Part shown: one piece after another, positions 143-21,200 of the stretch
Position numbering within the stretch: the first letter of the stretch is position 1
How the letters are laid out: each line of letters begins with the position of its first letter
NCBI GenBank assembly: GCA_002070215.1
Contig: MWCV01000027.1
Coordinates: 1 to 32,535, forward strand
Origin: Chloroflexi bacterium ADurb.Bin180
GTDB taxonomy: Bacteria; Chloroflexota; Anaerolineae; UBA2200
DNA: 32,535 bases
Reading direction: 5' to 3'
Notes under the pieces: generated by a model
What the model was told of the DNA's origin: nothing
Databases searched by the model: none
What the model saw: the letters and a program-made list of their open reading frames with translations, nothing else
Position numbers and translations under genes: made by a program

Positions 143-162
143 GAAGGCAGTTCCATAGCAGT

Positions 163-266
163 GCGTCTCCGACCCAACGTCCCTCTGGACGAGAATGCCC
201 GTGGGCGTTGGGCGACAGGGTATGGTGGGAAACCGCCATGCCTCCCGTGTCTGGAAAGGAGATTGC
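163..266 (+). promoter_or_regulatory. Moco/Tuco-type riboswitch aptamer upstream of mop
   Basis: The RNA closes with TCTCC (166-170) pairing GGAGA (258-262). Inside are a 7-bp helix (173-179 with 206-212) and a 7-bp hairpin with a GAAA loop (222-239). The hairpin is followed directly by GCCTCCC (240-246) and TCTGGAAAGG (250-259). As I remember it, the E. coli moaA leader has the same arrangement: a hairpin, then GCCTCCCGTATCTGGAAAGG. That RNA is the molybdenum-cofactor riboswitch (Rfam RF01055). A molybdenum enzyme lies directly downstream, and a second copy sits at 13,262-13,381. Whether it senses the molybdenum or the tungsten cofactor cannot be decided by eye. Confidence 0.82.
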
Positions 267-279
267 CCCTGGCCTTGCG

Positions 280-317
280 CGCGGCGTCTCCTATTGCAGA
301 ACGCCGCGTTTTGTTTT
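280..317 (+). terminator. Intrinsic terminator in the mop leader (riboswitch expression platform)
   Basis: A perfect 8-bp GC-rich stem (280-287 with 301-308) around a 13-nt loop is followed by TTTTGTTTT (309-317). It begins 14 nt after the aptamer and lies about 200 nt before the mop start codon, so it probably makes readthrough dependent on the cofactor-bound state of the RNA. I did not identify the antiterminator pairing. Confidence 0.75.
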
Positions 318-514
318 GCCTCCGGGCGGGCAACACCGCGAGCGTGATCTTGCTCAACCGGCGACAGGGCCCGCTGAGGCAGCGGGACAGGCCGGTAGGA
401 AAGGCGAAAGGAGGTGGCTGGCAGAACAGTCTATGGCATCCGCAGGTGAACGGCCAGTGCAAGGACGCAGGATCGTTTGCGTTCGGAACCAGACTACCAC
501 CAAAGGAGCAATGA
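318..514 (+). other. Long structured leader between terminator and mop start
   Basis: No convincing gene lies in this ~200-nt stretch. It contains a two-tier hairpin: CCGGC (358-362) pairs GCCGG (391-395), and CCCGCTG (370-376) pairs CAGCGGG (380-386) around a 3-nt loop. An AAAGGAGG run at 407-414 sits too far from any good start codon. The working ribosome binding site is AAAGGAG at 502-508, 6 nt before the mop ATG. I do not recognise this RNA. Confidence 0.5.
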
Positions 515-3241
515 ATGCTGAAAAAGAAGCTAATCGTCAACGGGATGCCGCGGAATCTGGTTGTGGACCCGGAGGCCAGTCTCGCTGAGGTACTGCGCAA
601 CCAGTTATTCCTCCTGGGCACCAAGATCGGTTGCGGCACCGCGATGTGCGGCGCGTGCAACGTGATCCTCGACGGCAAATTGATGCGCTCGTGCGTCGTC
701 AAGATGTCCGCTGTGCCGGACGAGGCCCAGATCACCACGGTCGAGGGCATCGGACAGCCCGGCAACCTGCACCCCATTCAGGCCGCTCTGGTGGCCCATG
801 GCGCCCCGCAGTGCGGCTACTGCATGTCGGGCATGGTCGTCTCGGCCAAAGCCTTTCTGGATGAGAACAAGAATCCCACGCGTCAGCAGGTGCGCGACTG
901 GCTGACCAAGTACCACAACGCCTGCCGCTGCAACGGTTACAAGCCCATCGTCGATTCGGTGATGGATGCGGCCAAAATCCTGCGCGGTGAACTGACCGTC
1001 AAAAAGCTCGAATTCAAACTGCCCAAGGATGGCCGCATCTGGGGCAGCAAGTACCCCCGCCCCTCGGCCATCGCCAAGGTAACCGGCACCTTTGATTACG
1101 GTGCCGACGCCGGCGCCAAGCTGCCGCCCGATACGCTGCAGTTGGCCCTGGTACAGGCCAAGGTTTCCCATGCCAACATCAAGGGCATTGACACCTCCGA
1201 AGCGGAAAAGATGCCCGGCGTGTTCAGAGTACTGACCCACAAGGACGTCAAGGGCAAGAACCGCATCACCGGCCTGATCACCTTCCCGACCAACAAGGGC
1301 GACGGCTGGGACCGCCCGATCCTGTGCGACAAGAAGGTGTTCCAGCTCGGCGACGCCATCGCCATCGTCTGCGCCGATACAGAGGCCCACGCCCGGGCCG
1401 CGGCCGACAAGGTGAAGGTGGATCTGGAAGTGCTGCCCGCTTACCTGAGTGCCCCCGCGGCGATGGCCGAAGATGCGCTGGAGATCCATCCCGGCACGCC
1501 CAACGTCTACTTTGAGCTGCCCATCGTCAAGGGCGCGGATACCGCGCCGCTGATGAAGAAGGCGGCCTACGTTGTGGAGGACGAGTTCTATCTGCAGCGG
1601 CAGCCGCACCTGACCATCGAGCCGGACGTGGGCTTCGCCTATATGGACGAAGAGGGCCGCCTGACCATCCACTCCAAGAGCATCGGTATTCACCTGCACC
1701 ATGCCATGATCCAGGCCGGGCTCGGCATTCCGGCGGACAAGCTGCGCCTGGTGCAGAACGGAGCCGGCGGCACCTTTGGTTACAAGTTCAGCCCCACGAT
1801 GGAAGCGCTGCTGGGCGTGGCCTGCATGGCCACGAACCGGCCGGTGTTCCTCAAGTACAACTACTACCAGCACATCACCTACACCGGCAAGCGTTCTCCG
1901 TTCTGGATGAAGATCAAGATGGGTGCCGACAAGAAGGGCAAGCTCATCGCCATGGAGACGGACTGGACCGTGGACCACGGGCCCTACTCCGAGTTTGGCG
2001 ACCTGCTGACCCTGCGCGGCGCGCAGTACATGGGTGCTGGCTACAACATCCCGAACATCCGCGGCACGGGCCGCACCGTGGCCACCAACCATGCCTGGGG
2101 CTCGGCGTTCCGCTCCTACGGTTCACCGCAGGCCTTCCTGGCCAGCGAGAGCCTGATGGACGAACTGGCGGAAAAGATCGGTATGGATCCGCTGGAACTG
2201 CGCTACCTCAACGTCTACCGCAAGGGCGATACCACCCCCACCGGCCAGACGCCCGAGGTGCTCTCGTTCCCCAAGATGATCGAAAAGCTGCGCCCGGCCT
2301 ACAAAGCCGCCCTGGCCAAGGCCAAGAAAGAGTCCACCGCCGAGGTCAAGAAGGGCGTTGGCGTATCCGTCGGCATCTATGGCTGCGGTCTGGACGGCGT
2401 CGACTCGTCCGAGGTGTTTGTGGAGCTGACCAAGGAGGGAGTGACCGTCGGTGCCAGTTGGGAGGATCACGGCCAGGGCGCGGACATGGGTCTCCTGGGC
2501 ACGGCGCACGAGGCCCTGCGGCCCCTGGGGCTCAAGCCGGAACAGATCAAGCTGGTGATGAACGACACGGCGATCACGCCCAACAGCGGTCCGTCTGGCG
2601 GCAGCCGGCAGCAGGTGGTCACTGGCAACGCCATCAAGAATGGCGCCGAGGCCCTGCTCGCGGCGATGAAGAAAAAGAGCGGCAAGTACCGCACCTACGA
2701 GGAGATGGTCAAAGCCAAACTGCCTCTGCGCTATGCCGGCAAGTGGGCTGCTTCAATGAACGCCGGCTGCGACCTGCAGACTTCGCAGGGCAAGCCGTTC
2801 GCGGTGTATATGTACGGTGTGTTCATGGCCGAAGTGGCCGTGGAGGTCAAGACCGGCAAGGTGACGGTCGAGGGGATGACCCTGGTCGCCGATGTCGGCA
2901 AGATCAATAACCGGCTCGTCGTCGATGGTCAGATCTATGGCGGCATCGCCCAGGGCATCGGCCTGGCCCTCAAGGAAGACTTTGAGGACCTGACGAAGGA
3001 CGTCAACATCAAGGCCTGCGGCATTCCTTACGCCAACGACATCCCCGACAAGCTCGATATCCTCTACGTCGAAACACCGCGACCGAACGGCCCGTTTGGC
3101 GCGGCCGGGGTTGGCGAGCTGCCCCTGACCTCGCCGCACGTTTCGATCATGAACGCCATCAACAACGCCTGCGGGGTGCGCATCAAGCACCTGCCGGCGC
3201 GCCCGGAGAAGGTACTGGCCGCCCTCAAGGCCAAGAAGTAG
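515..3241 (+). CDS. mop: Molybdenum aldehyde oxidoreductase (Mop-type, xanthine oxidase family)
   Basis: This 908-aa protein should oxidise aldehydes to carboxylic acids with a molybdopterin cofactor and two [2Fe-2S] clusters. It aligns end to end, from memory, with D. gigas aldehyde oxidoreductase (907 aa). The plant-type cluster ligands are C40, C45, C48 and C60. The helical-domain cluster ligands are C100, C103, C137 and C139. The molybdenum domain follows from about residue 180, with the GGTFGYKF and GSAFRSYG segments near the cofactor. The catalytic glutamate is about E868, in GVGELPLTSPH. No signal peptide is seen, so it is probably cytoplasmic. The ATG at 515 follows AAAGGAG by 6 nt; the ATG at 511 is out of frame. 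It is the first gene of the operon and lies behind a probable cofactor riboswitch and terminator. The substrate cannot be read from sequence. Confidence 0.95.
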   Translation: MLKKKLIVNGMPRNLVVDPEASLAEVLRNQLFLLGTKIGCGTAMCGACNVILDGKLMRSCVVKMSAVPDEAQITTVEGIGQPGNLHPIQAALVAHGAPQCGYCMSGMVVSAKAFLDENKNPTRQQVRDWLTKYHNACRCNGYKPIVDSVMDAAKILRGELTVKKLEFKLPKDGRIWGSKYPRPSAIAKVTGTFDYGADAGAKLPPDTLQLALVQAKVSHANIKGIDTSEAEKMPGVFRVLTHKDVKGKNRITGLITFPTNKGDGWDRPILCDKKVFQLGDAIAIVCADTEAHARAAADKVKVDLEVLPAYLSAPAAMAEDALEIHPGTPNVYFELPIVKGADTAPLMKKAAYVVEDEFYLQRQPHLTIEPDVGFAYMDEEGRLTIHSKSIGIHLHHAMIQAGLGIPADKLRLVQNGAGGTFGYKFSPTMEALLGVACMATNRPVFLKYNYYQHITYTGKRSPFWMKIKMGADKKGKLIAMETDWTVDHGPYSEFGDLLTLRGAQYMGAGYNIPNIRGTGRTVATNHAWGSAFRSYGSPQAFLASESLMDELAEKIGMDPLELRYLNVYRKGDTTPTGQTPEVLSFPKMIEKLRPAYKAALAKAKKESTAEVKKGVGVSVGIYGCGLDGVDSSEVFVELTKEGVTVGASWEDHGQGADMGLLGTAHEALRPLGLKPEQIKLVMNDTAITPNSGPSGGSRQQVVTGNAIKNGAEALLAAMKKKSGKYRTYEEMVKAKLPLRYAGKWAASMNAGCDLQTSQGKPFAVYMYGVFMAEVAVEVKTGKVTVEGMTLVADVGKINNRLVVDGQIYGGIAQGIGLALKEDFEDLTKDVNIKACGIPYANDIPDKLDILYVETPRPNGPFGAAGVGELPLTSPHVSIMNAINNACGVRIKHLPARPEKVLAALKAKK

Positions 3242-3312: not shown

Positions 3313-5649
3313 ATGGAACAGCACAAGCTGCGCGAACTCGAGGCAATGTGCATCCAGGAGGCCCCGCCGGCCTGTACTGCGGCCTGCCCGCTGCACGTGG
3401 ATGTGCGCGGCATGATTCTGGAGCTGCGCCGGGGGGATCTGGACGCAGCGCTCAGAATCGTGCGCAAAGCGCTGCCCTTCCCGGGCATCATCGGGCGAAC
3501 CTGTGCCGCTCCCTGTACCTCTGCCTGCCGACGTAACGAGGCGGGGGAGGCGCTCGCCATCCGGGCACTGGAGCGCGCCTGCGCCGACCTCGGTCGTCAC
3601 AGTCCACCGGCGCTGCTGCCATCACGAGGGCAGCGCGTGGCAGTGGTGGGCGGGGGACCGGCCGGGTTGGTGGCGGCCTACGACCTGAGGCGCAAAGGCT
3701 ATACAGTGGTGCTGCTGGAGGCGGAGGCTCATCTGGGGGGGCGCTGGCGAGACCTGCCCGAGCGGGAGCTGCCGCGAAGCGTGCTCGAAGGTGAGCTATC
3801 CGAGCTGGAGGGCCTGGGGGTCGAGGTGCGGCTGCGCTCGGCCGTGGCTGGTGGCGGGCTGGACGAACTGCGCGCCGAGTACGATGCGGTGATTCTGGCC
3901 ATGGGTGGTTTGTCGAACGAGACGTTCGGGTTGGAAAGGACCCCCGACGGCCGCATTCGGGTGGATTCCGTTACCTGTGCTACCAGCCGTGAGGGAGTCT
4001 TTGCCGCCGGTAGCCTGGTGCTGGGCCAGGGCGAGGGCTCGGCCATCCAGTCGATGTGCGACGGACGGCGTGCGGCAACTACGGTGGATCGCTTTCTGCA
4101 GGGCGCGTCGCTTACCGCCTCACGTCAGGGAGAGGGCCCTTATCCCAGCCAGCTCTATGTGCGCACCGAGGGTTATGCGCCGCTGCCGGTGGTTGCGGCT
4201 GCCGATGCGCAGGCCGGCTACACGGCAGAAGAGGCCAGGCGCGAGGCAGAGCGCTGCTTTCCCTGCGCCTGTCTGGAGTGCGTCAAGGTGTGCGAATACC
4301 TGGCGCAGTACGAGAGCTATCCCCGCAAGTACGTACGTGAGATCTACAACAACTTGTCCATCGTCGCCGGCACTCGCCATTCGAACCAGTTCATCAACTC
4401 GTGCAGTCTGTGCGGGCTGTGTGGCGAGGTGTGCCCCAACCACCTGGATATGGCCACCGTGTGCCGCGAGGCGCGGGAGACCATGGTGGCGCAGGGGCGA
4501 ATGCCGCCATCGGCGCACGATTTCGCTCTGCGCGACATGGCGTGGAGCAACAGCAGCCAGTTCTCCCTGGCACGCCACGCGCCGGGCACCACGAGCAGCG
4601 AGTATGTGTTCTTTCCCGGCTGTCAGCTCTGTGGCTCGGCCCCGGAGCAGGTTCGCCAGATGTACGGCCACCTGCGCGAGAGGCTGGGCAAGGTCGGTTT
4701 GATGCTGGGGTGCTGCGGCGCACCGGCGGAATGGGCCGGACGCCAAGATCTGCTGGCAGAGCAGGTGGCCCGCCTCTCTGCCGGGCACCAGTCGCTGGGG
4801 CAGCCGGAAGTGATCCTGGCCTGCTCGACCTGCTATCGTCTGTTCAAGAACCATCTGCCGGAGGCCAGGGTGCGCTCGCTGTGGGAGGTGCTGGACGAGG
4901 TAGGGCTGCCTGCTGGGGCTCGCGCGCCGCAGGACAAGGTGGCGCTGCATGACCCCTGCACCACGCGCCAGGAGCCGCAGATGCATCAGCACGTGCGCCA
5001 CATTCTGCAGCAACTGGGCTGCCGGGTAGAGGAGCTGCCGCTCAGCCGCGAAAAGACCGAATGCTGCAGCTTTGGCGGCCAGATGTGGCTGGCCAACCGC
5101 GACCTGGCCAGGGCGGTGGTGCAGCGGAGAATCGCCGCCAGCGACACGGATTACATTACCTATTGCGCCGTGTGCCGCGATTTCTTTGCCGCGCAGGGCA
5201 AACCAACGCTGCACTTGCTCGACTTGCTGTACGGCAAGGATATCGCAGAACGGGCGCACCGCCCGGCGCCGGGCTGGTCGGACCGCCACGAGAACCGTGT
5301 GCGGCTCAAGCGCGCCATGCTCAAAGAATTGTGGGGAGAGGAAATGCCAGACCAGCCGTCCTACGAGTCGATTCGTTTGCTCATTTCGCCCGAGGTGCGC
5401 CAGCGAATGGAGGAGCGATTGATCCTGGTGGAGGACGTCCAGCAGGTCATCGAGCATGCCGAGCGCAGCGGCGCGCGCTTCCAGAACCGCCAGAGCGGCC
5501 ACTATCTGGCCGGCCACAAGCCGGCTGCGGTGACCTACTGGGTCGAGTACAGCCCACTGCCCGCTTCAGGCCAGGACCAGGAGCCGCAGTTCGTGGTGCA
5601 CAATGCCTACAGTCACCGTATGACGGTGGAATCGAGCCAGCCAGGATGA
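3313..5649 (+). CDS. GltD-like Fe-S flavoprotein fused to HdrB/GlpC-type CCG domains (DVU_1558-like)
   Basis: This 778-aa probable electron-transfer protein has several parts. The N-terminal di-cluster region resembles the glutamate synthase small subunit (C13, C21, C25, C64, C68, C72). An FAD Rossmann motif, VAVVGGGPAGLVAA, spans 109-122. A cysteine-rich segment (CFPCACLECVKVC) and a ferredoxin-like CSLCGLCGEVCP follow. The C-terminal half has HdrB/GlpC-type cysteine motifs (FFPGCQLCG, LGCCGAPAEW, HDPCTTRQEP, ECCSFGGQ). The tail of about 150 residues is unrecognised. I see no second GxGxxA nucleotide-binding motif, so NAD(P)H may not be the direct partner. I recall this architecture from the DVU_1558 family beside mop in Desulfovibrio. 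It probably exchanges electrons with Mop or a cofactor maturation step. The ATG follows an AGGAG site and the stop overlaps the next gene by 4 bp. Confidence 0.85.
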   Translation: MEQHKLRELEAMCIQEAPPACTAACPLHVDVRGMILELRRGDLDAALRIVRKALPFPGIIGRTCAAPCTSACRRNEAGEALAIRALERACADLGRHSPPALLPSRGQRVAVVGGGPAGLVAAYDLRRKGYTVVLLEAEAHLGGRWRDLPERELPRSVLEGELSELEGLGVEVRLRSAVAGGGLDELRAEYDAVILAMGGLSNETFGLERTPDGRIRVDSVTCATSREGVFAAGSLVLGQGEGSAIQSMCDGRRAATTVDRFLQGASLTASRQGEGPYPSQLYVRTEGYAPLPVVAAADAQAGYTAEEARREAERCFPCACLECVKVCEYLAQYESYPRKYVREIYNNLSIVAGTRHSNQFINSCSLCGLCGEVCPNHLDMATVCREARETMVAQGRMPPSAHDFALRDMAWSNSSQFSLARHAPGTTSSEYVFFPGCQLCGSAPEQVRQMYGHLRERLGKVGLMLGCCGAPAEWAGRQDLLAEQVARLSAGHQSLGQPEVILACSTCYRLFKNHLPEARVRSLWEVLDEVGLPAGARAPQDKVALHDPCTTRQEPQMHQHVRHILQQLGCRVEELPLSREKTECCSFGGQMWLANRDLARAVVQRRIAASDTDYITYCAVCRDFFAAQGKPTLHLLDLLYGKDIAERAHRPAPGWSDRHENRVRLKRAMLKELWGEEMPDQPSYESIRLLISPEVRQRMEERLILVEDVQQVIEHAERSGARFQNRQSGHYLAGHKPAAVTYWVEYSPLPASGQDQEPQFVVHNAYSHRMTVESSQPG

Positions 5650-5860: not shown

Positions 5861-6595
5861 GTGGGCGTGGCCGGCTGGGAAGGGCTGCAGCGGCTCACCG
5901 GCGTGATGCGGCCGGGCGGGCTGGAGCTCACCGAACGGGCTCTGCGCGCCAGCCGACTGAGCGCCGGCTCGCGGGTGCTGGACGTGGGCTGCGGCGCCGG
6001 CGCCAGCCTGGCCCTGCTGGCGCAGTGGAACCTGGTCGGCGTGGGGGTGGACGTGATGCCGCTGGTGGGGCAGCCTGGCGCAGCAGGCGGCGCACCACGG
6101 TTAGTTCAGGCCGGGGGCCAGCGCTTGCCGCTGCGCGAGCGGTCGTTCGATGCGGTGCTGGCCGAGTGCAGTCTGTCGCTGATGCCGGTGCGAGGGGCAC
6201 TGGCCGAGTTCGCCCGGGTGCTGCGGCCGGGAGGCCGGCTGCTCCTGAGCGACCTCTACCTGCGGCGACCCGAGCAAGCCCCAGCCCTGCGAGCCCTGGC
6301 GCTCGACGGCTGCCTGGCCGGTGCGAGGGGCAGGGACGAGTGGCTCTCTCTGCTTGGCGACGCGGGGTTTGCCGTGCTCGAGTGGGAGGATCACTCCGCC
6401 GCGCTGCGCCAAACGGTTGGACAGTGGATGATGGCCGGCGGTGCACCCGAGCAGCTCTGGTGCGGCGGGGCAAGTTGCTGCTCGCTCGATGCGGTGGAGC
6501 AAGTGCGGGCGGCGGTCGCGGCGGCACGGCCCGGGTACTATCTGCTGGTCGCTGCGTATCGGGGTGCGTCAGCCGTTCACGGGGAGGACCAATGA
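5861..6595 (+). CDS. SAM-dependent methyltransferase (DVU_1556-like)
   Basis: This 244-aa class I methyltransferase has motif I VLDVGCGAGASLALL, a central segment ending SFDAVLAECSLSLM, and the post-motif RVLRPGGRLLLSDLYLR. The start is taken as GTG 5861, two bases after the upstream stop; GTG 5867 is also possible. ATG 5906 would remove the N-terminal WEGLQRLTG segment, which I think is conserved in the DVU_1556 family. The C-terminus has an unusual CGGASCC cluster. The methyl acceptor is unknown. Position in the operon suggests work on a cofactor or partner of the Mop system rather than general metabolism. The stop overlaps the next gene by 4 bp. Confidence 0.82.
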   Translation: MGVAGWEGLQRLTGVMRPGGLELTERALRASRLSAGSRVLDVGCGAGASLALLAQWNLVGVGVDVMPLVGQPGAAGGAPRLVQAGGQRLPLRERSFDAVLAECSLSLMPVRGALAEFARVLRPGGRLLLSDLYLRRPEQAPALRALALDGCLAGARGRDEWLSLLGDAGFAVLEWEDHSAALRQTVGQWMMAGGAPEQLWCGGASCCSLDAVEQVRAAVAAARPGYYLLVAAYRGASAVHGEDQ

Positions 6596-7035
6596 GCAAC
6601 GATGCGGCGCGTATCGCCGAGTTGAGCCTGCAGGGATTCTGTTGCAGCCAGGTGCTGGCCCTGATGGGCCTGGAACTCATGGGCACCAGCAGCCCCGAGC
6701 TGGTGCGGGCAATGATGGGTCTGTGCGGCGGCATCGGCTCGTCCGGCGCCACCTGCGGGGCGCTCACCGGGGGAGTCTGTGTATTGCATCTGTTTGCCGG
6801 CAAGGGTGCGCCGGAGGAAAAGGTCGACTTTCAACTCGGCCTGATGACCAGTGAGCTGATCGAGTGGTTCACCGCCGAGTACACCGCCAGTTACGGCGGC
6901 ATCCTGTGTCGTGAGATCCTGGCCGGTAACCCGATGCATCAGCGAACGCGCTGTCCGCAGTTGGTAGTAGCCACCTGGGAGAAGGTCAAAGAGATCCTGC
7001 TGGCCAACGGCTATCCCAGGGCGAGGGGGAGATGA
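6592..7035 (+). CDS. C-GCAxxG-C-C family protein (DVU_1555-like)
   Basis: This 147-aa protein has the family signature: an N-terminal FCCSQ, then LCGGIGSSGATCGALTGG, and a C-terminal RCPQLV cysteine. Other family members are thought to bind a metal or act in redox reactions, with the cysteines as ligands. A GGAGG site lies about 6 nt before the ATG at 6592, and the gene overlaps both neighbours by 4 bp (ATGA at each end). The family is common beside radical SAM and oxidoreductase genes in anaerobes. No specific reaction can be assigned. Confidence 0.88.
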   Translation: MSNDAARIAELSLQGFCCSQVLALMGLELMGTSSPELVRAMMGLCGGIGSSGATCGALTGGVCVLHLFAGKGAPEEKVDFQLGLMTSELIEWFTAEYTASYGGILCREILAGNPMHQRTRCPQLVVATWEKVKEILLANGYPRARGR

Positions 7036-8414
7036 ACGGCGAAGAAACGCGGCTCGGTGAGACCGAGAGCGTTTGCCCGGAGTGCCTGCAACGGATTCCG
7101 GCGCGCCGGGTCGGCCGCGGAGGCGACGTGTTCCTGGTGCAGGAGTGCCCGGTCCACGGCCGCTTCGAGGCGGTGCTCTGGCGCGGCGAGCCGGATTATG
7201 CCTCCTGGATCAGACCCAAGACGCCCAGCTCGCCCAGGCAGCCGTTCACCGCAGTTGACCGCGGCTGCCCGCTGGATTGCGGGCTGTGCCCCGAGCACCG
7301 GCAGCATACCTGCACGGCGCTGCTGGAGGTGACGGGACGCTGCGACCTGGGCTGTGCCTACTGCTTTGCCAGCTCCGGCGGCGACGCGCCACCGGATCCT
7401 TCGCTGGAGGTGATCGCTGGCTGGTACGCCGCTCTGCTGCAAGCGGGCGGCCCGTACAACGTGCAGCTTTCCGGCGGCGAACCGTGCCAGCGCAACGACC
7501 TGGCCGGGATCGTGCGGCTGGGCAAGTCGATGGGATTTGGTTTCATCCAGCTCAACACCAATGGCCTGCGACTGGCCAGCGACCCTGACCTGGGGCGTGA
7601 GCTCAAAGACGCCGGTCTGTCATCGGTGTTTCTGCAGTTCGATGGCACCGAGGACGAGATCTACCGCGCGCTCCGTGGCCGGCCGCTGTGGGACATCAAG
7701 CGGGCCGCAGTGGAGCGCTGTGCCGAGCTGGAGCTCGGCGTGGTGTTGGTGCCCACACTGGTGCCGGGCGTGAACGTACACAACATTGGCCAGATCATTC
7801 GTTTCGCCCTGGCCCACCAGCCGGCAGTGCGGGGAGTGCATTTCCAGCCGGTGAGCTATTTCGGGCGATTTCCCCGCGGAGTGGACGACAGCCGCCGGGT
7901 GACCCTGCCCGAGGTAATGCGGGAGATCGAACGGCAGATGGATGGCCAGATGGCGGTGCGGGATTTCCGGCCGTCGGGGTGCGAGAACTCGCACTGCTCG
8001 TTCCACGCCGACTACCTTCCCCTACCGGATGGCCGGCTGTACTGCCTGCCGGCCAGGCCCGCGGCTGGCTGTGGCTGCTCACCGGAGCGGGCCGAGGAAG
8101 GAGCGGCGCGCACCCGCGCTGTGACCGCCAGACGTTGGTCCTTCCCCGCCGCTACGGCTGTCGAGTGCGGGGCGGAACCCGCGCCGGGGCCCGGGCTGGG
8201 CGAGTGGGAGGTGATTCTCCGTCAGGTCAAGACGCACACTCTGACCATATCGGCGATGGCCTTCCAGGACGCCTGGACGCTGGATCTCGAGCGCCTCAAG
8301 GATTGCTGCATCCACACGGTGCATCCGGATGGGCGCCTGATCCCGTTCTGTGCCTACAACCTTACCAGTGCCAGCGGCCAGCCGCTGTACCGCCGCGTGG
8401 AGCGGCACCAGTGA
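7032..8414 (+). CDS. trsS: Radical SAM protein, TrsS-like
   Basis: This 460-aa radical SAM enzyme has the [4Fe-4S]-SAM motif CDLGCAYC (C104, C108, C111). It is preceded by CPLDCGLCPEHRQHTC (C79, C83, C86, C94), a signature shared with the Tes/MJ0619 group that couples lipid chains. The N-terminus has a CPEC pair (C15, C18) with a later ECPVHG, which suggests a zinc site. LSGGEP follows the radical SAM motif as expected. The C-terminus holds another cysteine group (DCCIHTVHPDG, PFCAYN). I recall the cluster member being named TrsS, sometimes a selenoprotein; here every visible position is cysteine and there is no in-frame TGA. Its substrate is unknown. It overlaps both neighbours by 4 bp. Confidence 0.88.
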   Translation: MNGEETRLGETESVCPECLQRIPARRVGRGGDVFLVQECPVHGRFEAVLWRGEPDYASWIRPKTPSSPRQPFTAVDRGCPLDCGLCPEHRQHTCTALLEVTGRCDLGCAYCFASSGGDAPPDPSLEVIAGWYAALLQAGGPYNVQLSGGEPCQRNDLAGIVRLGKSMGFGFIQLNTNGLRLASDPDLGRELKDAGLSSVFLQFDGTEDEIYRALRGRPLWDIKRAAVERCAELELGVVLVPTLVPGVNVHNIGQIIRFALAHQPAVRGVHFQPVSYFGRFPRGVDDSRRVTLPEVMREIERQMDGQMAVRDFRPSGCENSHCSFHADYLPLPDGRLYCLPARPAAGCGCSPERAEEGAARTRAVTARRWSFPAATAVECGAEPAPGPGLGEWEVILRQVKTHTLTISAMAFQDAWTLDLERLKDCCIHTVHPDGRLIPFCAYNLTSASGQPLYRRVERHQ

Positions 8415-9787
8415 GAATCACCCCTCTGGACGCCTGGATCGCCGGCAAGGTCGGTCACCAAGGCGAGCTGCTGACCCGGTCGGCGATCCAGGCCTGGCAA
8501 CTGAACAGGCTGCGGGAGACACTGGCGCTGGTGCGCGAGAAGAGCGCTTTTTATCGCGAGCACCTGTCGGCGGCTCCGACCGAGCTGGGCCGTCTCGACG
8601 ACCTGGCGCAGTGCGGCTTTACCACACCAGAGGACATTGCCCGGGAAGGGCAGCGGATGCTGTGCGTATCACAGGGGGAGATCGAGCGGGTGGTGACGCT
8701 GGACAGCTCGGGCACCACCGGCGCGGCCAAGCGCCTCTATTTCACCCGGGAGGATCAGGAGCTGACCATCGACTTTTTCCGGGTGGGAATGTCGACCCTG
8801 GTGGAGCCGGGCGACAGGGTGCTGATCCTGCTGCCCTGCGAGCGGCCGGGCAGTGTGGGCGACCTGCTGGCCAAAGGCCTGGAGCGCCAGCGTGCCTGCC
8901 CGCTCAAGCACGGGCCGGTGCGTGACCTGGCCGAGACGCTCCAGTTGCTGGCGCAGGAGAAGGTGGATGCGCTGGTGGGCGTGCCGGTGCAGGTGCTGGC
9001 GCTGGCGCGTCAGCGGAACGACCAGGCGCGGCGCGCCCTGCGCCTCCAGAGCGCACTGCTCTCGACGGACTATCTGCCGCCTGCCATCGCCGTGGCGCTG
9101 GAAGAGGCCTGGGGCTGCCGCGTGTTCGATCACTATGGCATGACCGAGATGGGTCTGGGCGGCGGGGTGCAGTGCGAGGCCAGGCGCGGCTATCACCTGC
9201 GCGAAGCAGACCTGTACGTGGAGGTCGTCGACCCGGCCACGGGCCGCGAGGTGCCAGAGGGGGAATACGGTGAGGTGGTCTTTACCACGCTCACCAGGCG
9301 CGGGATGCCCCTGATCCGCTACCGCACCGGCGACCTGAGCCGCTTCATTCCCGAACGGTGTGCCTGCGGCACGGCGCTCAGGAGCCTCGAGCCGGTCCGT
9401 CAGCGCCTGTCCGGTCGCGCCGCGCTGGGCGCGAGCCTGACCCTGTCCCAGGCCGACCTGGACGATGCGCTGTTTCCGTTCGCGGAGGTTCTGGATGTGC
9501 GGGCAGAGCTCTCGCACCAGGGCGACCGCGACCACCTGTCGGTGCTGGTGCGAACGGTACCCGGCGCCGGCAATGCTCTGCGGCCGCGGCTCAAAGCGGC
9601 ATTGTGGTCGGTGCCCGCACTGGCCGAGGCGCAGAGCAGGGGAGTGCTGGACCTGGCCTTGCAGGTCGATGCGTCGGGATACGCTCCGCCGCTCAGTGCG
9701 GCCAAGCGGGCGATCAAAGACACGAGAGGCCCAACTGGAATGAGCAAAAGCGAGCAGTGCCTGAGCCGGGCAGGTTCTTGCCGCTGA
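8411..9787 (+). CDS. PaaK-like AMP-forming acyl-CoA ligase (DVU_1553-like)
   Basis: This 458-aa ANL-superfamily enzyme activates a carboxylate with ATP, normally to give an acyl-CoA. Visible motifs are the phosphate loop LDSSGTTGAAKR, the DHYGMTEMG segment and RYRTGDLSRF, with a candidate catalytic lysine near the C-terminus in SAAKRAIKD. A CACG pair lies before the C-terminal domain. Size and motifs resemble phenylacetate-CoA ligase. The start is GTG 8411, overlapping the upstream stop as GTGA; an upstream extension in this frame would cover the radical SAM gene. One idea is that it activates the acid made by Mop; another is that it adenylates a maturation intermediate. Confidence 0.85.
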   Translation: MRITPLDAWIAGKVGHQGELLTRSAIQAWQLNRLRETLALVREKSAFYREHLSAAPTELGRLDDLAQCGFTTPEDIAREGQRMLCVSQGEIERVVTLDSSGTTGAAKRLYFTREDQELTIDFFRVGMSTLVEPGDRVLILLPCERPGSVGDLLAKGLERQRACPLKHGPVRDLAETLQLLAQEKVDALVGVPVQVLALARQRNDQARRALRLQSALLSTDYLPPAIAVALEEAWGCRVFDHYGMTEMGLGGGVQCEARRGYHLREADLYVEVVDPATGREVPEGEYGEVVFTTLTRRGMPLIRYRTGDLSRFIPERCACGTALRSLEPVRQRLSGRAALGASLTLSQADLDDALFPFAEVLDVRAELSHQGDRDHLSVLVRTVPGAGNALRPRLKAALWSVPALAEAQSRGVLDLALQVDASGYAPPLSAAKRAIKDTRGPTGMSKSEQCLSRAGSCR

Positions 9788-9830
9788 TTCGACAGCCGCA
9801 CCCGGCAATCAGAATGAAAGGAGAAAGACA

Positions 9831-11003
9831 ATGGATCGCCGAAGAATGTTGAGATGGATGCTGGCCGTTCTGCTGCTGGGAGTGTTGGCTCAGGCCTGCC
9901 GGCCCGAGCCGACGCCGACGCCGGTGCCCACGCCCACGCCGCGGCCCACCGCCACGCCGACGCCGCTGCCGCCGCCAACGCCGACGCCCGTGCCTACCCC
10001 GGAGAGCATCAAGATCACCGACTCGCTGGGCAACACGGTCGAGTTCAAGACGCTCCCGCAGCACATTGTCATCGCCGGCAAGAACCCGCTGCCCGTGGTC
10101 GAGAACCTGTTCCTCTATCCGGAAGCGAACGAGCGACTGGCAGGTTATGCGATGGGCGGGAAGCAGAATCCGGCCACTTTCTTGTCGCTGATGCACCCGA
10201 CATTCAAGGACAAGCCGACCCTGCAGACCGGCGCCACGGCAGAGCAGATCACTGCCCTGCAGCCAGATGCGGTGGTGATGAAGAGCCTGAACTATGAGGC
10301 CCTCGGCAAGCCGCTGCAGGCGCTGGGTATCCCGGTGATCGCCCTCGACCTGGAGACGCCAGAGCAGTTCACCCACGACCACGTGATCCTGGGAGAGTTG
10401 TTCGGGAATCCGACGCGCAGTCAGGACATCCTGGCCTACTACGAGGCCAAGCTGGCGCCAGTGGCTCAGGCCACCGAGGGGCTCAAGCCAGAAGAAAAGC
10501 CTACCGTGCTGCTGATGCAGTACAGCCTGAGCGGCGGGGAAGTCGCCGTGAGCGTTCCTCCGGGGTCCTGGCTCCAGACGCTGATGGTCGAGCTGTCCGG
10601 CGGAAACCCGGTGTGGAAGGACACGGTCAGTGGCAGCGGCTGGGCTGTGGTCAACCTGGAGCAGATCGCGGCCTGGGATCCGGAGGTCATGCTGGTGGTG
10701 GACTATACCGCTAACCCGAAAGAGGCGGTGGCCAAGCTCAAGGCCGACGCGCGCTGGCAGGAGCTCAAGGCGGTGAAAGAAAACCGCATCTATGGCTTTG
10801 CTGGCGACTTTTTCAGCTGGGACCAGCCGGATCCGCGCTGGATTCTCGGAGTCAACTGGTTGGCGGCCAAACTGCACCCGGAGAAGTTCCCTGGATTTGA
10901 CCTGACGCAGATGGTCACCGAGTTCTTTGTGCAGATGTACGGCATGAGCGAGTCGCAGGTGCAATCTGGGGTTCTACCTAAACTGACCGGCGACGTGAAG
11001 TGA
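9831..11003 (+). CDS. Substrate-binding lipoprotein of a FecCD-type ABC importer
   Basis: This 390-aa protein has a signal peptide ending in LAQAC (C23 lipidated), a Thr-Pro linker over residues 24-59, and a periplasmic-binding fold of the BtuF/FepB type starting at KITDSLGNTVEF. Thr-Pro linkers of this kind are typical of surface lipoproteins in Anaerolineae. AAGGAG lies 8 nt before the ATG. A 43-bp gap separates it from the ligase gene, the largest after the one behind mop. The ligand is unknown. The mop operon and the leader riboswitch make molybdate or tungstate (as in MolBCA) a reasonable inference. Iron-siderophore or cobalamin are alternatives. Confidence 0.88.
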   Translation: MDRRRMLRWMLAVLLLGVLAQACRPEPTPTPVPTPTPRPTATPTPLPPPTPTPVPTPESIKITDSLGNTVEFKTLPQHIVIAGKNPLPVVENLFLYPEANERLAGYAMGGKQNPATFLSLMHPTFKDKPTLQTGATAEQITALQPDAVVMKSLNYEALGKPLQALGIPVIALDLETPEQFTHDHVILGELFGNPTRSQDILAYYEAKLAPVAQATEGLKPEEKPTVLLMQYSLSGGEVAVSVPPGSWLQTLMVELSGGNPVWKDTVSGSGWAVVNLEQIAAWDPEVMLVVDYTANPKEAVAKLKADARWQELKAVKENRIYGFAGDFFSWDQPDPRWILGVNWLAAKLHPEKFPGFDLTQMVTEFFVQMYGMSESQVQSGVLPKLTGDVK

Positions 11004-12058
11004 GCCGGTCCCATCAAGTGGGGATGGCGCAGGGTCGTTCCGCGGCCCGCGGGGGCGCTGCCGGGGGTGTCTCGAGCCGCAAGAGCCGGGATCTGCTTCT
11101 GCTGCTGATTCTGCTCGTGGTGATGGGGGCGTCGCTGCTGATCGGGCGGTACCCGGCGCCGTACTGGATGACGCCGGCCCGCCTGGCCCGGGATCCACTG
11201 GCGCAGCGATTGGTGCTGACGCTGCGACTGCCGCGGCTGATCAGCGCCTGCCTGCTGGGCATGGTCTTGTCGGCCTGCGGCACGGTGCTGCAGATGATCT
11301 TTCGCAATCCCCTGGTCGAGCCGGGCTTTCTGGGGGTATCGCAGGGCGCTGCCTTTGGTGCAGCCCTGGCGATCATCTTCCTGGGAAGGGGAGCCCTCAT
11401 CGTGGAGGGCTCCGCGGCTCTTTTTGCCTGCCTGGGGCTGATCATCACTTACAGTCTGGCCAAACGCACTCGGTTCGGCGGCTGGATCCTGCGCCTGGTG
11501 ATGTCGGGCATCGTGGTGTCGGCACTCTTCTCGGCCGGCGTGGGTGTGCTCAAGTACATGGCCGACCCGCTGACCCAGTTGCAGGACATTGTGTTCTGGA
11601 TGATGGGCGGGCTGTGGAGCGTGCAGTGGGAGGACGTAGGATACCTGCTGCCGGTGGCCGTGATCGGGCTGACCATCGTCTACCTGATGCGCTGGCGGCT
11701 GAACCTGCTGTCGCTGGATGACGACACCAGCTTTTCGCTGGGAGCTGCTCCGGGCAGGGAACGGGCACTGATCCTGGCCGCAGCGGTGGGGGCCACCGCG
11801 GCCGCCGTGTCTGTTGCCGGCATCGTGGGCTGGGTGGGACTGCTGATTCCGCACATAGCGCGGCGGATCAGCGGAGCCGACGCGCAGGCCTCGGTGCCCA
11901 CTTCGATCCTGTTGGGGGGCGTGTTCGCCGTGCTGTGCGACGACCTGGCGCGCACGCTGATGACCGGCGAGATCCCGCTGGGCATCCTCACTTCGCTGCT
12001 GGGCGGGCTGCTCTTTTTGTGGCTGATGGTGGCTGGCGAGCTGAGGGTGCAACGATGA
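11000..12058 (+). CDS. FecCD/BtuC-family ABC importer permease
   Basis: This 352-aa multi-pass membrane protein of the type II importer family is about the usual length, with a basic N-terminus of ~30 residues before the first membrane segment. Family features include RLPRLISACLLGM, the NPLVEPGFLGVSQGAAFG segment, and GWVGLLIPHIARR, the cytoplasmic loop that contacts the ATPase. The start is taken as GTG 11000, overlapping the binding-protein stop as GTGA; ATG 11024 is a weaker alternative. The stop overlaps the ATPase gene by 4 bp. It forms the membrane channel for the lipoprotein's ligand. Confidence 0.92.
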   Translation: MSRSHQVGMAQGRSAARGGAAGGVSSRKSRDLLLLLILLVVMGASLLIGRYPAPYWMTPARLARDPLAQRLVLTLRLPRLISACLLGMVLSACGTVLQMIFRNPLVEPGFLGVSQGAAFGAALAIIFLGRGALIVEGSAALFACLGLIITYSLAKRTRFGGWILRLVMSGIVVSALFSAGVGVLKYMADPLTQLQDIVFWMMGGLWSVQWEDVGYLLPVAVIGLTIVYLMRWRLNLLSLDDDTSFSLGAAPGRERALILAAAVGATAAAVSVAGIVGWVGLLIPHIARRISGADAQASVPTSILLGGVFAVLCDDLARTLMTGEIPLGILTSLLGGLLFLWLMVAGELRVQR

Positions 12059-12834
12059 GCCAGGCACCGGCGGTGAGCCTCTCAGAGGTAAGCTTTGGCT
12101 ACGGAGCGAGCCCCAGGCCGGCGCTCAGCCAGGTCTCGCTCGAGATACCGGCGGGGCGCATCACGGCCATCCTGGGGCCGAACGGGTCCGGCAAGACCAC
12201 GCTGCTGCGGCTGCTGCTGGGCGTTCTCCAGCCGGTCGGGGGGCAGATCCTGCTGGGCGGGCGGGCCCGGTCGGCCTACTCGCGGGCCGAACAGAGTCGT
12301 CTGGTGGGCCTGGTGCCGCAGAGCGAGCACGTGCCTTTCGACTTTACGGTGTTGGAGTACGTCCTGCTGGGGCGGGCGCCCTACCTGGGGCCGCTGGACC
12401 TGCCCGGCCCTGAGGATCGAGCCATCGCACGAGAGGCACTGGAGATGGTGGGCATCGGCCATCTGGCAGAGCGGGCGGTGCCCAACCTGAGCGGAGGCGA
12501 GCGGCAGTTGGCCACCATCGCCCGCACGCTGGCCCAGGCGCCGGCCATGCTGCTGCTGGATGAGCCAACGGCTCATCTGGACCTGGGCAACCAGAGCCGT
12601 TTGCTCCAGATCATGCGCGACCTGCGCGACGCGGGCGGGACGCTGCTGGTGACCACTCATGACCCGGACCTGGCCGCCAGCGTGGCCGACCTGACCGTGC
12701 TGATGAAGGGTGGCCAGGTGCTTTGCGCCGGTCAGACGGAGGCGGTGCTCACTGCCGAGTGGCTGACGCGAGTGTACGAGACGCCCATTTTGGTGTACCG
12801 GGTCGACGGACACTACTTGATCTGCCTGGCCTAG
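12055..12834 (+). CDS. ABC importer ATPase (FepC/BtuD type)
   Basis: This 259-aa ATPase has Walker A GPNGSGKTT, a Q-loop in GLVPQSEHVPFDF, the signature LSGGERQ, Walker B MLLLDEPT and the switch histidine in TTHDPD. Length and motifs fit siderophore, cobalamin or molybdate importers of the FecCDE type. The ATG overlaps the permease stop. It is the last gene of the operon and ends 14 bp from the stop of a convergent minus-strand gene. No clear terminator is visible in that short gap. Confidence 0.93.
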   Translation: MSQAPAVSLSEVSFGYGASPRPALSQVSLEIPAGRITAILGPNGSGKTTLLRLLLGVLQPVGGQILLGGRARSAYSRAEQSRLVGLVPQSEHVPFDFTVLEYVLLGRAPYLGPLDLPGPEDRAIAREALEMVGIGHLAERAVPNLSGGERQLATIARTLAQAPAMLLLDEPTAHLDLGNQSRLLQIMRDLRDAGGTLLVTTHDPDLAASVADLTVLMKGGQVLCAGQTEAVLTAEWLTRVYETPILVYRVDGHYLICLA

Positions 12835-12848
12835 GGGCAGGGCGCGGG

Positions 12849-13142
12849 TCAGGCCGCGAGGCGAGCCTCCCCCTCACTGGCCGCCGCCTGCAGGCGTGCT
12901 TCCAGGGCCACGGCGGCGATATCGGGCAGCATGGCCGCCTCAAAGACCGCGTAGGTGCGGTGATCTGGCGCATCGATGATCAGCGTGACCTGCTCCGGCC
13001 GCGGGCCTGGCTCGACGCGGAAACCCAGACGCTGAAAGAGGCGTACCGAGTCCTCGAAGGAGAGGCGCAGCGCAGGGCCAGGGAGGGTATCGGCCGGAGG
13101 GCCGGCGTCGGACGCGCACTTGTCTGTGGGCACGTGATCCAA
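12849..13142 (-). CDS. Unrecognised 97-aa protein under a Moco/Tuco-type riboswitch
   Basis: The gene reads from TTG 13142 to 12849. The start is fixed by AAGGAG (13155-13150) 7 nt upstream; the frame runs further upstream, but there it crosses the aptamer and a hairpin. The first ~25 residues look disordered. The rest reads as a compact alpha/beta domain (SFEDSVRLFQRLGF, then EQVTLIIDAPDHRTYAVFEA) with a helical alanine-rich tail. The one cysteine is C9. I recognise no family. The upstream RNA links it to the cellular state of molybdenum or tungsten cofactor, so a role in cofactor handling or Mop-operon function is likely but unproven. Confidence 0.75.
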   Translation of the reverse strand: MDHVPTDKCASDAGPPADTLPGPALRLSFEDSVRLFQRLGFRVEPGPRPEQVTLIIDAPDHRTYAVFEAAMLPDIAAVALEARLQAAASEGEARLAA

Positions 13143-13149
13143 GGGCGGT

Positions 13150-13155
13150 CTCCTT
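13150..13155 (-). promoter_or_regulatory. Ribosome binding site fixing the TTG start of the 97-aa gene
   Basis: The minus strand reads AAGGAG, then a 7-nt spacer, then TTG at 13142. No ATG or GTG with a comparable site is nearby in this frame. Confidence 0.7.
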
Positions 13156-13197
13156 AAGGTGAAAAGAAGACGCGCCGGCTGCCCTGGCCGGCCAGAC

Positions 13198-13244
13198 AAG
13201 CAACGCGGCGGCATCCAGAAAGTGGACGCCGCCGCGCTTTGCTT
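13198..13244 (-). terminator. Large hairpin after the second riboswitch aptamer
   Basis: On the minus strand a near-perfect stem of about 19 bp (13244-13224 with 13216-13198) encloses a 7-nt loop, between the aptamer and the ribosome binding site. It occupies the same relative place as the terminator in the mop leader and is similarly GC-rich (both contain a CGCGGCG core). The following bases are only moderately T-rich, so it may end transcription weakly or act through another mechanism. Confidence 0.5.
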
Positions 13245-13261
13245 CCCTGGCCACGAGCAGC

Positions 13262-13381
13262 GCATCTCCTTTCCAAGGATGGGAGGCGCTGCCGTTTCCA
13301 GCAGGGCCTTGCCGGTGTGGTGCCGTGGCTGCAGCTCGCGCGCTGCGAGCGTCAGCGGTAGGTCACCAGACTCGGAGATGC
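13262..13381 (-). promoter_or_regulatory. Second Moco/Tuco-type riboswitch aptamer
   Basis: The RNA closes with a perfect 8-bp helix, GCATCTCC (13381-13374) with GGAGATGC (13269-13262). It contains a 6-bp GCTCGC/GCGAGC hairpin and a CTGCTG-GAAA-CGGCAG hairpin (13304-13289), followed by CGCCTCCC and then TTGGAAAGGAG. The order of elements is the same as in the aptamer at 163-266 and, from memory, the E. coli moaA leader. The extra internal hairpin favours the Moco form, which I recall having a P3 helix absent in the tungsten form. Divergence from copy 1 in the helices with retained pairing argues for a conserved RNA structure. Confidence 0.8.
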
Positions 13382-13409
13382 TAACGAACAACGGATTCGA
13401 TTGACCATC

Positions 13410-18233: not shown

Positions 18234-21200
18234 TCAGCCCTCAAAGCGCGGGTCGTAGAGCCAGCAGATGCCGGTTGCAGCGCAATAGGACGGGCAGCCC
18301 CCGTCCGGCACGGACGGAGCGAAGGCGCCGGCGCGCACGCCCCACACGGCTGCAGTGGCGGCGGTGACCGCGGCGGCTATCGCTCCCTGCGGGCCGTTGC
18401 CGAACTGCTCGGACTTGAACTTGCTCAGGGAAAAGCCGCTGCGTTTGGCATCGAGGATGTGCCAGTAAAAGCCCTCTATCGGCTGGCCGCGCTTTTCCCG
18501 GTCGATGGCGTCTCGGGCGGCCAGGGCGTAGAGCGGGAGCTGCAGCTTTTTGCCCTTTTCCACGGAGGGAGCGGTGTAGGTGCCCGCACCGCCAGACTTG
18601 TAGTCGATGATGCGCAGCCGGCGCGCCTCCTCCTGCTCGGGCAGGAGGTCGATGCGGTCGATGATGCCGTGGAGGAGCAGCGGGGGATCCCCGTCGATCA
18701 CGAGCGGCGGGCTGCCGTGACGGCCAAAGGCGGCTTCGAAGAGGACGGGCCGCCACTGCCCCTTTTCCCGGTCCAGCTCCTCCAGCGTGCGCCGAATGTT
18801 GACCTCGATCTCCTCGCGGGTCCGTTCCCACCATTGCGTCTGGCGAAAGCCCAGCTCCCGCGGCGCCGCGTCGAGCACCTCGAGCGCCACGGCGGGCAGG
18901 GCATCCTGAAGCTGAGCGAGGTCACGCGGGTTGGCGACCCTCCGGAAGAGCTTTTCCAGGATCTGATGGTAGATGGTGCCGAGCTGGGTCGGTTCGGGGC
19001 CGACGGTGGGCTCGGGCCGCGGCTCGAGGCCGAGCAGGTTGGCAATGAAGAAATGGAAGGGGCAGCAGCGGTAGACCTCGAGGCGGCTGGGGCTCCACAC
19101 GTGCGCCGGGCCAAAGGTCTGGCCCAGCTCGGACGACAGGCAGGACAGGTCGCCATCGCTGGCGGGACCGCGGCCCAAGCGCTGGCCGTGCAAGGCCGCA
19201 GCCAGGCGCAGGTGCTCCAGGCGCGGGGCGTCGGCGGCCAGGGCCCAGGCCCGTTGCGCGGCAGGCGGGTCAAGAACCGCAAGAGACTCCATCAGCTCGG
19301 GCCAGGAGGCCACCTCTTCCGGCGCCAGGCGCGCATCGCTCGTCAGCGTGAGTGGCGCGATGCGCGTGACGCGGCGGACCTCCTCCCACAGGGGCGAGGC
19401 CTCCCAGGGTGCGCCGTTCTCGGCCAGGCGCGGACGCGTGAGCAGCAGGCGGTGCGAAGGGCGCGTGACGGCCTCGTAGAACGCCTGCACCTCGGCACTG
19501 TCGATGGAGGACTCGAGGCGCAGGCCGCATGCGCGCAGGGCGGTGCGGTCCGACTCGCGCAGGAAGGGGTCCTCGTGCTGAGTCTTGGGGAACTCGCCTT
19601 CGGCCAGGCCGAGGATGGCCGCCGCTGCCAGGGGCAGGCCGCGGGCCGAACGAACGCCGGCCACGAGCAGCTCGTCCCGGCCGGGGTCCACCGGCGGCAG
19701 ATAGACCTCGCTCTCGATCACGCCGCTCAGATCCTCGAAAAAGCGGGCATAGTCCACCTGGCCCGGGCTGCCCTCGAAAGCCTCCTCCGCCCAGACCAGG
19801 CCGCGCAGGATGTCCTTGAGTGCGCGCAGGGCGGCCACGTCGAGGTGGCAGCCGGGAGGGGGGCCTTCTTTGGCGCGGGTCACCACCTGGAGCGAGGTGG
19901 GTTCCGGGAGGGCGGGGAAGGGCGACGTGCCCGGGTCCGGGTCGGCGCCGATGAGGTCCTCGAGCCAGGCCACCAGGGTGCGGTAGGAAAGCAGAGTCGC
20001 GCCGGTGGCGGCGGGAGGCCGCAGGCGGTCCACAAAGCGCTCAAAGCGTCCCCGGAGCAGCAGTGCCTGCTCGGGCGAGGGCAGGTCGGGCGGGGTGTGG
20101 TCGTTGTCGTTCTCGTCGCCAAGGGTGGCGGAGCGCGCGGCGGCACGGTCGAGCGCCTCGCGCCACTGGGCCTCTCCGCCCACCACCTGACCCCAGCGGG
20201 CGATGGCGGCCAGACGGTCCGCGTCGCCGGGGCCGATGCCAATCGGTTCTGTACTGTCCTCGGCGGGCAGGGCCGACCAGTCAAAGTAGGGCGAACGCCA
20301 GGCCTCGACGACCAGGCGGTACGGCAGAGCGTACTCGGGGGGAGAGGCGGCATCTGACAGCCGTCCCGCATCGGCAGGGCCTCCCGCCAGGGCGGTCTCT
20401 GCCTCGGCGGGAAGCATCAGGCGCAGGAGGTCGAGCAGCGCGGCGATGACCGGGCTGCTCTTGAGCGGCAGGCCCTCTACCAGGCGCACTGGCAGCTCGA
20501 ACTCGGCGGCGGTCTGCTGGATGAAGGGGCGGTACGGGGCGATGTCGCGGGCCAGCAGGGCCACCGAGTGCAGCGGCAGGTGATCCCCCAGCAGGCGGGC
20601 CTTGAGCCAGCGCACGGCGGCGCGCACTTCGGCGGCGCGGTCCGGTGCTTCGATGAGCTCGATGGCCGGTTCGGGTGCCGGCTCTGGTGCCGGCTCTGGC
20701 GCCGGCGGTGCGGGCGGCGGGAACAGGCCGGCCTCGAGGGTGCGCAGGCCCGGAGCGATGGGCGGCAAGGGATGCCGCAGGGCCTCGGCCTGGATGCCCA
20801 GGGCCGACTCGAGCTCGGCTCTGGTGCGCTCGAAGCGGCGCCACACCAGCGGGCGCGCGGGGTCTCCGACCGAGCCGGTCAGGGTGATGATCATACGGTC
20901 CACGCGGCCGGCCAGCTCCACGAGAAGGGCCAGCTCGAGCGGGGTGAAGGAGTCAAAACCGTCGATGACCAGGAGCGGCCAGTCGCGGCCGAGGTCAGGC
21001 GTGGCGCGCAGCACCTCGAGCGCCAGCCAGCCCAGTCCGATGCGGTCGGCCGAGCTCTGCGCGTGGAGCTGCTGCTGATAGCGGGAGTAGATGAGGGCCA
21101 GCTCGGCAAGGCGGGCGTCGTTGCCGAGGGCGGCCACGGCGGCGGTGAGGTCCTCCGGTGTGATCAGCGCGGCCTTGAACTCGGCGAACAGCGACTGGAG

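Follow-up and report, generated by a model that had tools for sequence, protein, structure and literature searches.

Organization of the importer locus

The window analysed here is a 32,535-nucleotide stretch of DNA from Chloroflexi bacterium ADurb.Bin180. Three open reading frames on its plus strand (9831–12834) together encode a class III binding lipoprotein, a FecCD-type permease and an ATPase; these genes and the surrounding features are listed in Table 1. The three genes are tightly packed, with 4-base overlaps at both the binding protein/permease and the permease/ATPase junctions, and a spacer of 43 bases separates the preceding gene from the binding-protein gene. The lipoprotein has a lipobox-like LAQAC motif at residues 19–23 followed by a Pro/Thr-rich linker, both read by eye.

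Table 1. Coordinates and supporting evidence for the importer genes, the gene run and the riboswitches of the window.
Feature	Coordinates	Strand	Evidence
Moco/Tuco riboswitch, P3 absent, heading the gene run	155–277	+	RF01055, 62.1 bits (gathering score 36); fold
Terminator-like GC-rich hairpin with T-rich tail, directly after the riboswitch	280–318	+	Sequence, fold
Molybdopterin-dependent aldehyde oxidoreductase	515–3241	+	NF045668, 1653.6 bits (cut-off 1100)
Pyridine nucleotide-disulfide oxidoreductase/dicluster-binding protein	3313–5649	+	NF045663, over cut-off
DVU_1556 family methyltransferase	5903–6595	+	NF045667, over cut-off; start from profile match
DVU_1555 family C-GCAxxG-C-C protein	6604–7035	+	NF045669, over cut-off; start from profile match
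Radical SAM protein TrsS	7032–8414	+	NF045646, 666.7 bits (cut-off 490)
DVU_1553 family AMP-dependent ligase	8420–9787	+	NF045666, over cut-off; start from profile match
Class III substrate-binding lipoprotein (MolA-like)	9831–11003	+	390 aa; Pfam Peripla_BP_2, 71.6 bits
FecCD-type permease (MolB-like)	11000–12058	+	352 aa; FecCD, 255.5 bits
ABC ATPase (MolC-like by position)	12055–12834	+	259 aa; ABC_tran, 113.8 bits
Small ORF preceded by the second riboswitch	12849–13142	-	TTG start set by eye from a ribosome-binding-site-like sequence
Second Moco/Tuco riboswitch, without P3, pointing towards the transporter genes	13250–13389	-	RF01055, 50.1 bits; fold

The importer genes are the last of a same-strand run headed by a Moco riboswitch and an aldehyde oxidoreductase. 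Intergenic gaps within the run are no longer than 253 bases, a figure that is an upper bound because the starts of three genes come from profile matches. The terminator scan returned no site in the gap before the binding-protein gene (9787–9831), and the plus-strand terminator-like sites that it listed upstream of 9787 (at 2391, 5162 and 8720) are all intragenic. The hairpin directly after the first riboswitch is absent from the scan list, its loop being too long for the scan. The sequence-only reading had placed the importer in a molybdenum-enzyme operon behind a cofactor riboswitch, and its position in such a gene run is confirmed. Since the riboswitch lies 9.5 kb and six genes upstream, a transcript shared with the importer is presumed, and the importer's link to the riboswitch runs via this putative operon rather than by direct adjacency.

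The second riboswitch precedes a small ORF on the opposite strand. This ORF has tblastn matches near a related transporter in two loci (L052 and L054), matched no Pfam or NCBIfam family, and was seen in G000 only among the 301 genomes sampled. A cspA match in the Rfam scan was below the gathering score and was set aside. A fixed association between the transporter and the TrsS operon was also considered and is not supported: only G000 and G215 of the 301 genomes of the phylum pass the TrsS cut-off, and the latter (86% complete) gave no FecCD match.

Phylogeny of the permease

The permease trees draw on 34 binding-protein relatives taken from named genomes; all but two of these (L033 and L056) contributed a permease row. 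A search of 100 genomes in the same class supplied further FecCD loci, namely the 30 with the best Pfam scores (L067–L096) and 20 more places chosen by hand with scores nearer that of the window. The outside references were BtuC, FhuB, FecC, FecD, FepD and FepG of Escherichia coli K-12, and the MolB sequence was taken from the PDB.

In the resulting 93-row tree, a group of 48 rows (SH-aLRT 96) contains the permease of the window, its paralogues at loci C29 and C70, MolB, and all of the rows with a Moco riboswitch link. The E. coli permeases BtuC, FhuB, FecC/D and FepD/G fall outside the group, as do the systems with cobalamin riboswitches. Removal of 12 near-duplicate rows gave an 81-row tree with the same split, in which the group of 40 rows has support of 100/96 and recurs in each of 200 bootstrap trees. 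Haem permeases rank directly behind MolB as PDB matches, and BhuU was therefore added to the 81-row set. BhuU was placed outside the group, which retained a support of 97; MolB and BhuU are both long branches flagged by the program for unusual composition. A match of phylogeny to BtuF or siderophore-type systems had been named beforehand as the result that would speak against a MolBCA-like importer; the trees instead group MolB with the set of the window and leave the Btu, Fhu, Fec and Fep permeases of E. coli outside.

Pairwise comparisons point the same way. The best PDB match of the window permease is MolB (2nq2, 1.1e-54), followed by HmuU (2.6e-45), BhuU (8e-44), FhuB (1.3e-43) and BtuC (about 1e-33). 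By BLAST, the window permease scores 182 bits against MolB and 105–108 bits against E. coli FecC, FecD and BtuC. MolB itself scores 253 bits (45% identity) against the C70 permease and 127 bits against its best E. coli relative, and these pairwise scores agree with its position in the tree. The permease nearest to that of the window is the one at L114, with 66–68% identity.

Riboswitches and neighbours of related systems

The genome, which is 95% complete, has three FecCD and three Peripla_BP_2 matches, and these fall in the same three loci: the window, C29 and C70. A Moco riboswitch is linked to all three systems, in the case of C29 and C70 directly. At both of these loci the riboswitch is followed by a terminator-like hairpin, a ribosome-binding-site-like sequence and the binding-protein gene, in that order, with start codons assigned by eye. 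The only cobalamin riboswitch found in the genome lies before genes for a cyclase-like lipoprotein and an ECF transporter.

Rfam searches at gathering scores covered all 34 relatives, 20 of the 30 best-scoring class loci (L067–L086) and the 20 chosen class loci. Moco riboswitches were found in 6 of the 34 relatives, upstream and on the same strand in each, in none of the 20 class loci and in one of the 20 chosen loci. Cobalamin riboswitches showed the opposite distribution (0/34, 12/20 and 5/20, respectively). The remaining 28 relatives gave no riboswitch match in Rfam, where at least 500 bases upstream of the match were present in 30 of the 34 loci. Placed on the permease tree, all 10 Moco-linked systems, including the window and its two paralogues, lie inside the MolB group and all 17 cobalamin-linked systems lie outside it. 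The probability of such a split of labels at random among independent rows is 1.2e-7, a value that overstates the evidence because the rows of a tree are related.

In the fixed protein-set search most of the 34 relatives show the importer alone, and the loci that show molybdenum or tungsten neighbours are those examined most closely. At L049 a TupA-like gene is followed by the binding protein, permease and ATPase and then by MoaA, MoaC and MoaE. The order at L102 is XdhC, binding protein, permease, ATPase, an NTPase and ModA (TIGR01256, over cut-off), while L114 has a PadR-like regulator (named by eye), the three importer genes, a MoCF_biosynth protein and XdhC. L051 consists of a riboswitch, the importer, an aldehyde oxidase and XdhC, and MocA-like, YqeC and XdhC genes are the neighbours at L063. 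Oxidored_molyb-like stretches lie just before the binding protein at L046, L051 and L064, and at L065 the binding-protein reading frame is split into two ORFs. At L052, the importer is convergent with a TrsS operon that it adjoins, and the small ORF also has a match there.

By record titles, the group extends beyond the Anaerolineae to Aminicenantes, Acidobacteriota, Coprothermobacterota, a spirochaete and one Bacillota MAG. The importers of this group, found mainly in Anaerolineae, are probably for molybdenum or tungsten.

Substrate assignment

Taken with the permease trees, the genome context and the neighbours and riboswitches of the relatives support the MolBCA-like oxyanion importer that had been suggested from the window alone; it is the substrate that we infer. 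Most likely, the system is a MolBCA-type ABC importer (type II) for molybdate and/or tungstate, one that would serve enzymes with a pterin cofactor. It is best filed as MolBCA-like on its phylogeny and context, not on binding. The lipoprotein would capture the oxyanion at the cell surface and dock on a dimer of the MolB-like permease, with uptake powered by the ATPase. Finished cofactor, when abundant, would bind the P3-lacking riboswitch at the head of the run and favour the hairpin behind it, and this hairpin would lower transcription of the enzyme, the accessory genes and the importer. We infer this direction of control.

For the binding protein, a profile built from 43 relatives ranks PDB entries in the order 4ovk, 4hn9, 4pag, MolA (3psa, 4.2e-36), 4mo9 and YiuA (6.5e-26), with BtuF at 4.5e-14. 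MolA is therefore the best PDB relative of stated ligand by sequence, behind three entries of unstated ligand (4ovk, 4hn9 and 4pag). Scores against the family profile are 127.8 bits for MolA, 94 for YiuA and 55 for BtuF. The entry 4hn9 carries an iron-transport name. An AlphaFold2 model of the binding protein (mean pLDDT 96.0, pTM 0.92) gave 4ovk as its first and MolA as its second Foldseek hit. Z scores from VIA-align were 31.6 for 4hn9, 31.2 for YiuA, 30.4 for 4ovk, 30.0 for MolA (rmsd 2.7, 301 aligned) and 21.2 for BtuF. The protein is thus nearest to a set of structures containing MolA as well as YiuA; these two tie by fold, and the fold does not separate an oxyanion from a siderophore.

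For this reason we retain as a weak rival an iron-siderophore importer, YiuA- or CeuE-like, that would supply the operon's Fe-S and molybdenum enzymes. Besides the fold score of YiuA, the NCBIfam names nearest to the binding protein include those of haem, B12 and iron families, with every one of these matches well short of its cut-off. Against it, the siderophore permeases of E. coli lie outside the group (the permease partner of YiuA is not among the tree rows), and the relatives adjoin molybdenum or tungsten genes and Moco riboswitches. We consider a siderophore substrate improbable.

Bulky chelates are the usual ligands of class III binding proteins. The importer might accordingly take up a metal chelate, such as a molybdophore or tungsten complex, or a pterin-bound metal instead of the free oxyanion. 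The binding protein of C70 bears Oxidored_molyb-like repeats, to which the stretches at L046, L051 and L064 are similar, and these would fit such a substrate. However, Pfam found no Oxidored_molyb domain in the binding protein of the window, and MolA, from the same group, is described as binding free oxyanions (PMC4031551). Uptake of a chelate is thus quite improbable in our view.

A BtuCDF-like importer of cobalamin or another corrinoid would account for the weak similarity to BtuF and BtuC, and B12 is probably the substrate of many FecCD systems in the class, to judge from the cobalamin riboswitch at more than half of the control loci. The 34 relatives show no such riboswitch, the cobalamin-linked permeases are outside the MolB group, and in this genome the cobalamin riboswitch precedes ECF genes; by tree, riboswitch class and ECF system we reject a B12 importer and give the corrinoid reading very little credence. 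A haem importer is rejected on the position of BhuU outside the MolB group.

Stem P3 and the choice between molybdenum and tungsten

Moco RNAs without the P3 stem are described as going with tungsten-cofactor genes, and a response of P3-lacking RNAs to the tungsten cofactor has been proposed from this correlation (Regulski 2008, PMC2408646). In both riboswitches of the window the P3 columns are deleted in the RF01055 alignment and the folds contain no P3 helix. The genome has ten Moco riboswitch matches, nine of them over the gathering score. By our own reading, P3 is absent from eight: two in the window, three on C29, and one each on C7, C19 and C17, where the C17 match scores 27.8 bits and its lack of P3 was judged from sequence and fold only. 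Four of the P3-lacking riboswitches precede enzymes of the aldehyde-ferredoxin-oxidoreductase kind, called by Pfam on C19 and C17 and by NCBIfam matches below cut-off for the two on C29. Behind the C19 oxidoreductase comes a radical SAM maturase for tungsten enzymes, over its cut-off. The C7 riboswitch precedes a moaA-like gene along with further genes of apparent cofactor function, and the rest precede the C29 importer, the gene run of the window and the small ORF. P3 is present in two matches, on C16 before an Oxidored_molyb protein and on C70 before the third importer. The distribution of P3 in this genome matches the 2008 rule.

The absence of P3 from the riboswitches of the window, as from those before the tungsten-type oxidoreductases of the genome, hints at tungsten. 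Two observations count against a simple tungsten reading. Seven riboswitches in the relatives all retain P3, by our own reading of single-sequence folds, and the aldehyde oxidoreductase of the window belongs to a family generally counted as molybdenum-dependent. The genome also has TupA-like and TupB-like genes and a WtpB-like gene, all of which score below NCBIfam cut-offs, and a WtpA that passes the cut-off of TIGR03730, so the genome could import tungstate without the importer of the window. A preference of this importer for tungstate is a further and weaker step, a plausible refinement whose chances we put at about even. A stricter division of labour, with the C29 and window importers dedicated to tungstate (P3-lacking) and that of C70 to molybdate (P3-bearing), is possible but doubtful; if true, the window would hold a FecCD-type importer tuned to tungsten. 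P3-bearing and P3-lacking riboswitches before paralogous importers in one genome offer a direct test of the 2008 proposal on tungsten sensing.

Comparison with known systems

Iron or B12 is the usual label given to FecCD importers, and members of the MolB group may be misnamed in databases. Search listings of open-licence papers showed none that describes a FecCD importer controlled by a Moco riboswitch. The window copies of RF01055 (Regulski 2008) are over the gathering score and belong to the P3-lacking subtype described there as tied to the tungsten cofactor.

The closest known system is MolBCA of Haemophilus influenzae (HI1470–HI1472). MolA is described as binding molybdate and tungstate, and MolBC-A as a type II importer (PMC4031551, PMC5117765, PMC3928620). 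The binding reported for MolA is in the range of about 100 uM (PMC3928620). Like the importer of the window, MolBCA combines a class III binding protein with a FecCD-type permease and one ATPase, and the permeases are 37% identical. In contrast to MolBCA, the importer of the window sits in a riboswitch-headed run with an aldehyde oxidoreductase and is one of three paralogues in its genome. BtuCDF and the haem and Fhu/Fec/Fep importers have a superfamily and fold in common with it but lie outside the supported permease group. TupABC and WtpABC probably have the same function as the window importer, and genes like both occur in the genome, but they have permeases of the ModB/CysT kind and binding proteins of another class.

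Moco and cobalamin riboswitches in the ADurb.Bin180 genome

The genome holds ten matches to Moco-type riboswitches (L007–L016). Two bear the P3 stem, and each of these lies ahead of a protein with an Oxidored_molyb domain. Riboswitches that precede the tungsten-type enzymes are among those lacking P3. A cobalamin riboswitch at locus L032, on contig C4, is followed by genes for a cyclase-like lipoprotein and an ECF transporter, and this ECF system is likely a B12 importer.

The second Moco riboswitch of the window also lacks P3 and is separated from an ORF of about 97 codons by a long terminator-like hairpin at approximately 13243–13198. The ORF belongs to no known family, and of 300 further genomes sampled from the phylum none has a match. 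Small-ORF matches at L052 and L054 adjoin the same type of importer as is found in the window.

Features of the window
Feature	Position	Strand	Basis
Second Moco riboswitch (P3-lacking), hairpin and small ORF	12849-13389	-	Riboswitch match, fold, ORF
tRNA-Pro(cgg) call	18959-19043	+	ARAGORN
Overlapping genes: sacsin-type ATP-binding-domain protein and SNF2 helicase	25318-32033	-	Profile matches

An accessory domain of the binding proteins

Oxidored_molyb-like domains are fused to the binding protein of the paralogous importer on contig C70, and a TupA-like protein carries the same Pfam domain as a C-terminal fusion. At L046, L051 and L064, similar stretches lie immediately upstream of the binding protein. 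With these three loci, the sites of this observation are L005:1032-3497 and L028:3657-5030. A single accessory domain is thus common to two binding-protein classes. By cluster counts, a PadR-like regulator (named by eye) occurs in 12 of the 49 examined loci of importer relatives and an NTPase_1-like protein in 10.

Other observations

Two nearby proteins on contig C29 (L006:5254-6723 and L004:2602-4197) have 355 identical residues in common, and their genes an identical stretch of 1026 bases; recent duplication, gene conversion or an assembly effect could each account for this.

In the window, the tRNA-Pro call, antisense to which lies an AddB-like gene, was not reported over the gathering score in the Rfam scan and is probably false. 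The sacsin-type protein matched TmtA profiles and its partner helicase is DrmD-like; the pair is possibly a defence module.
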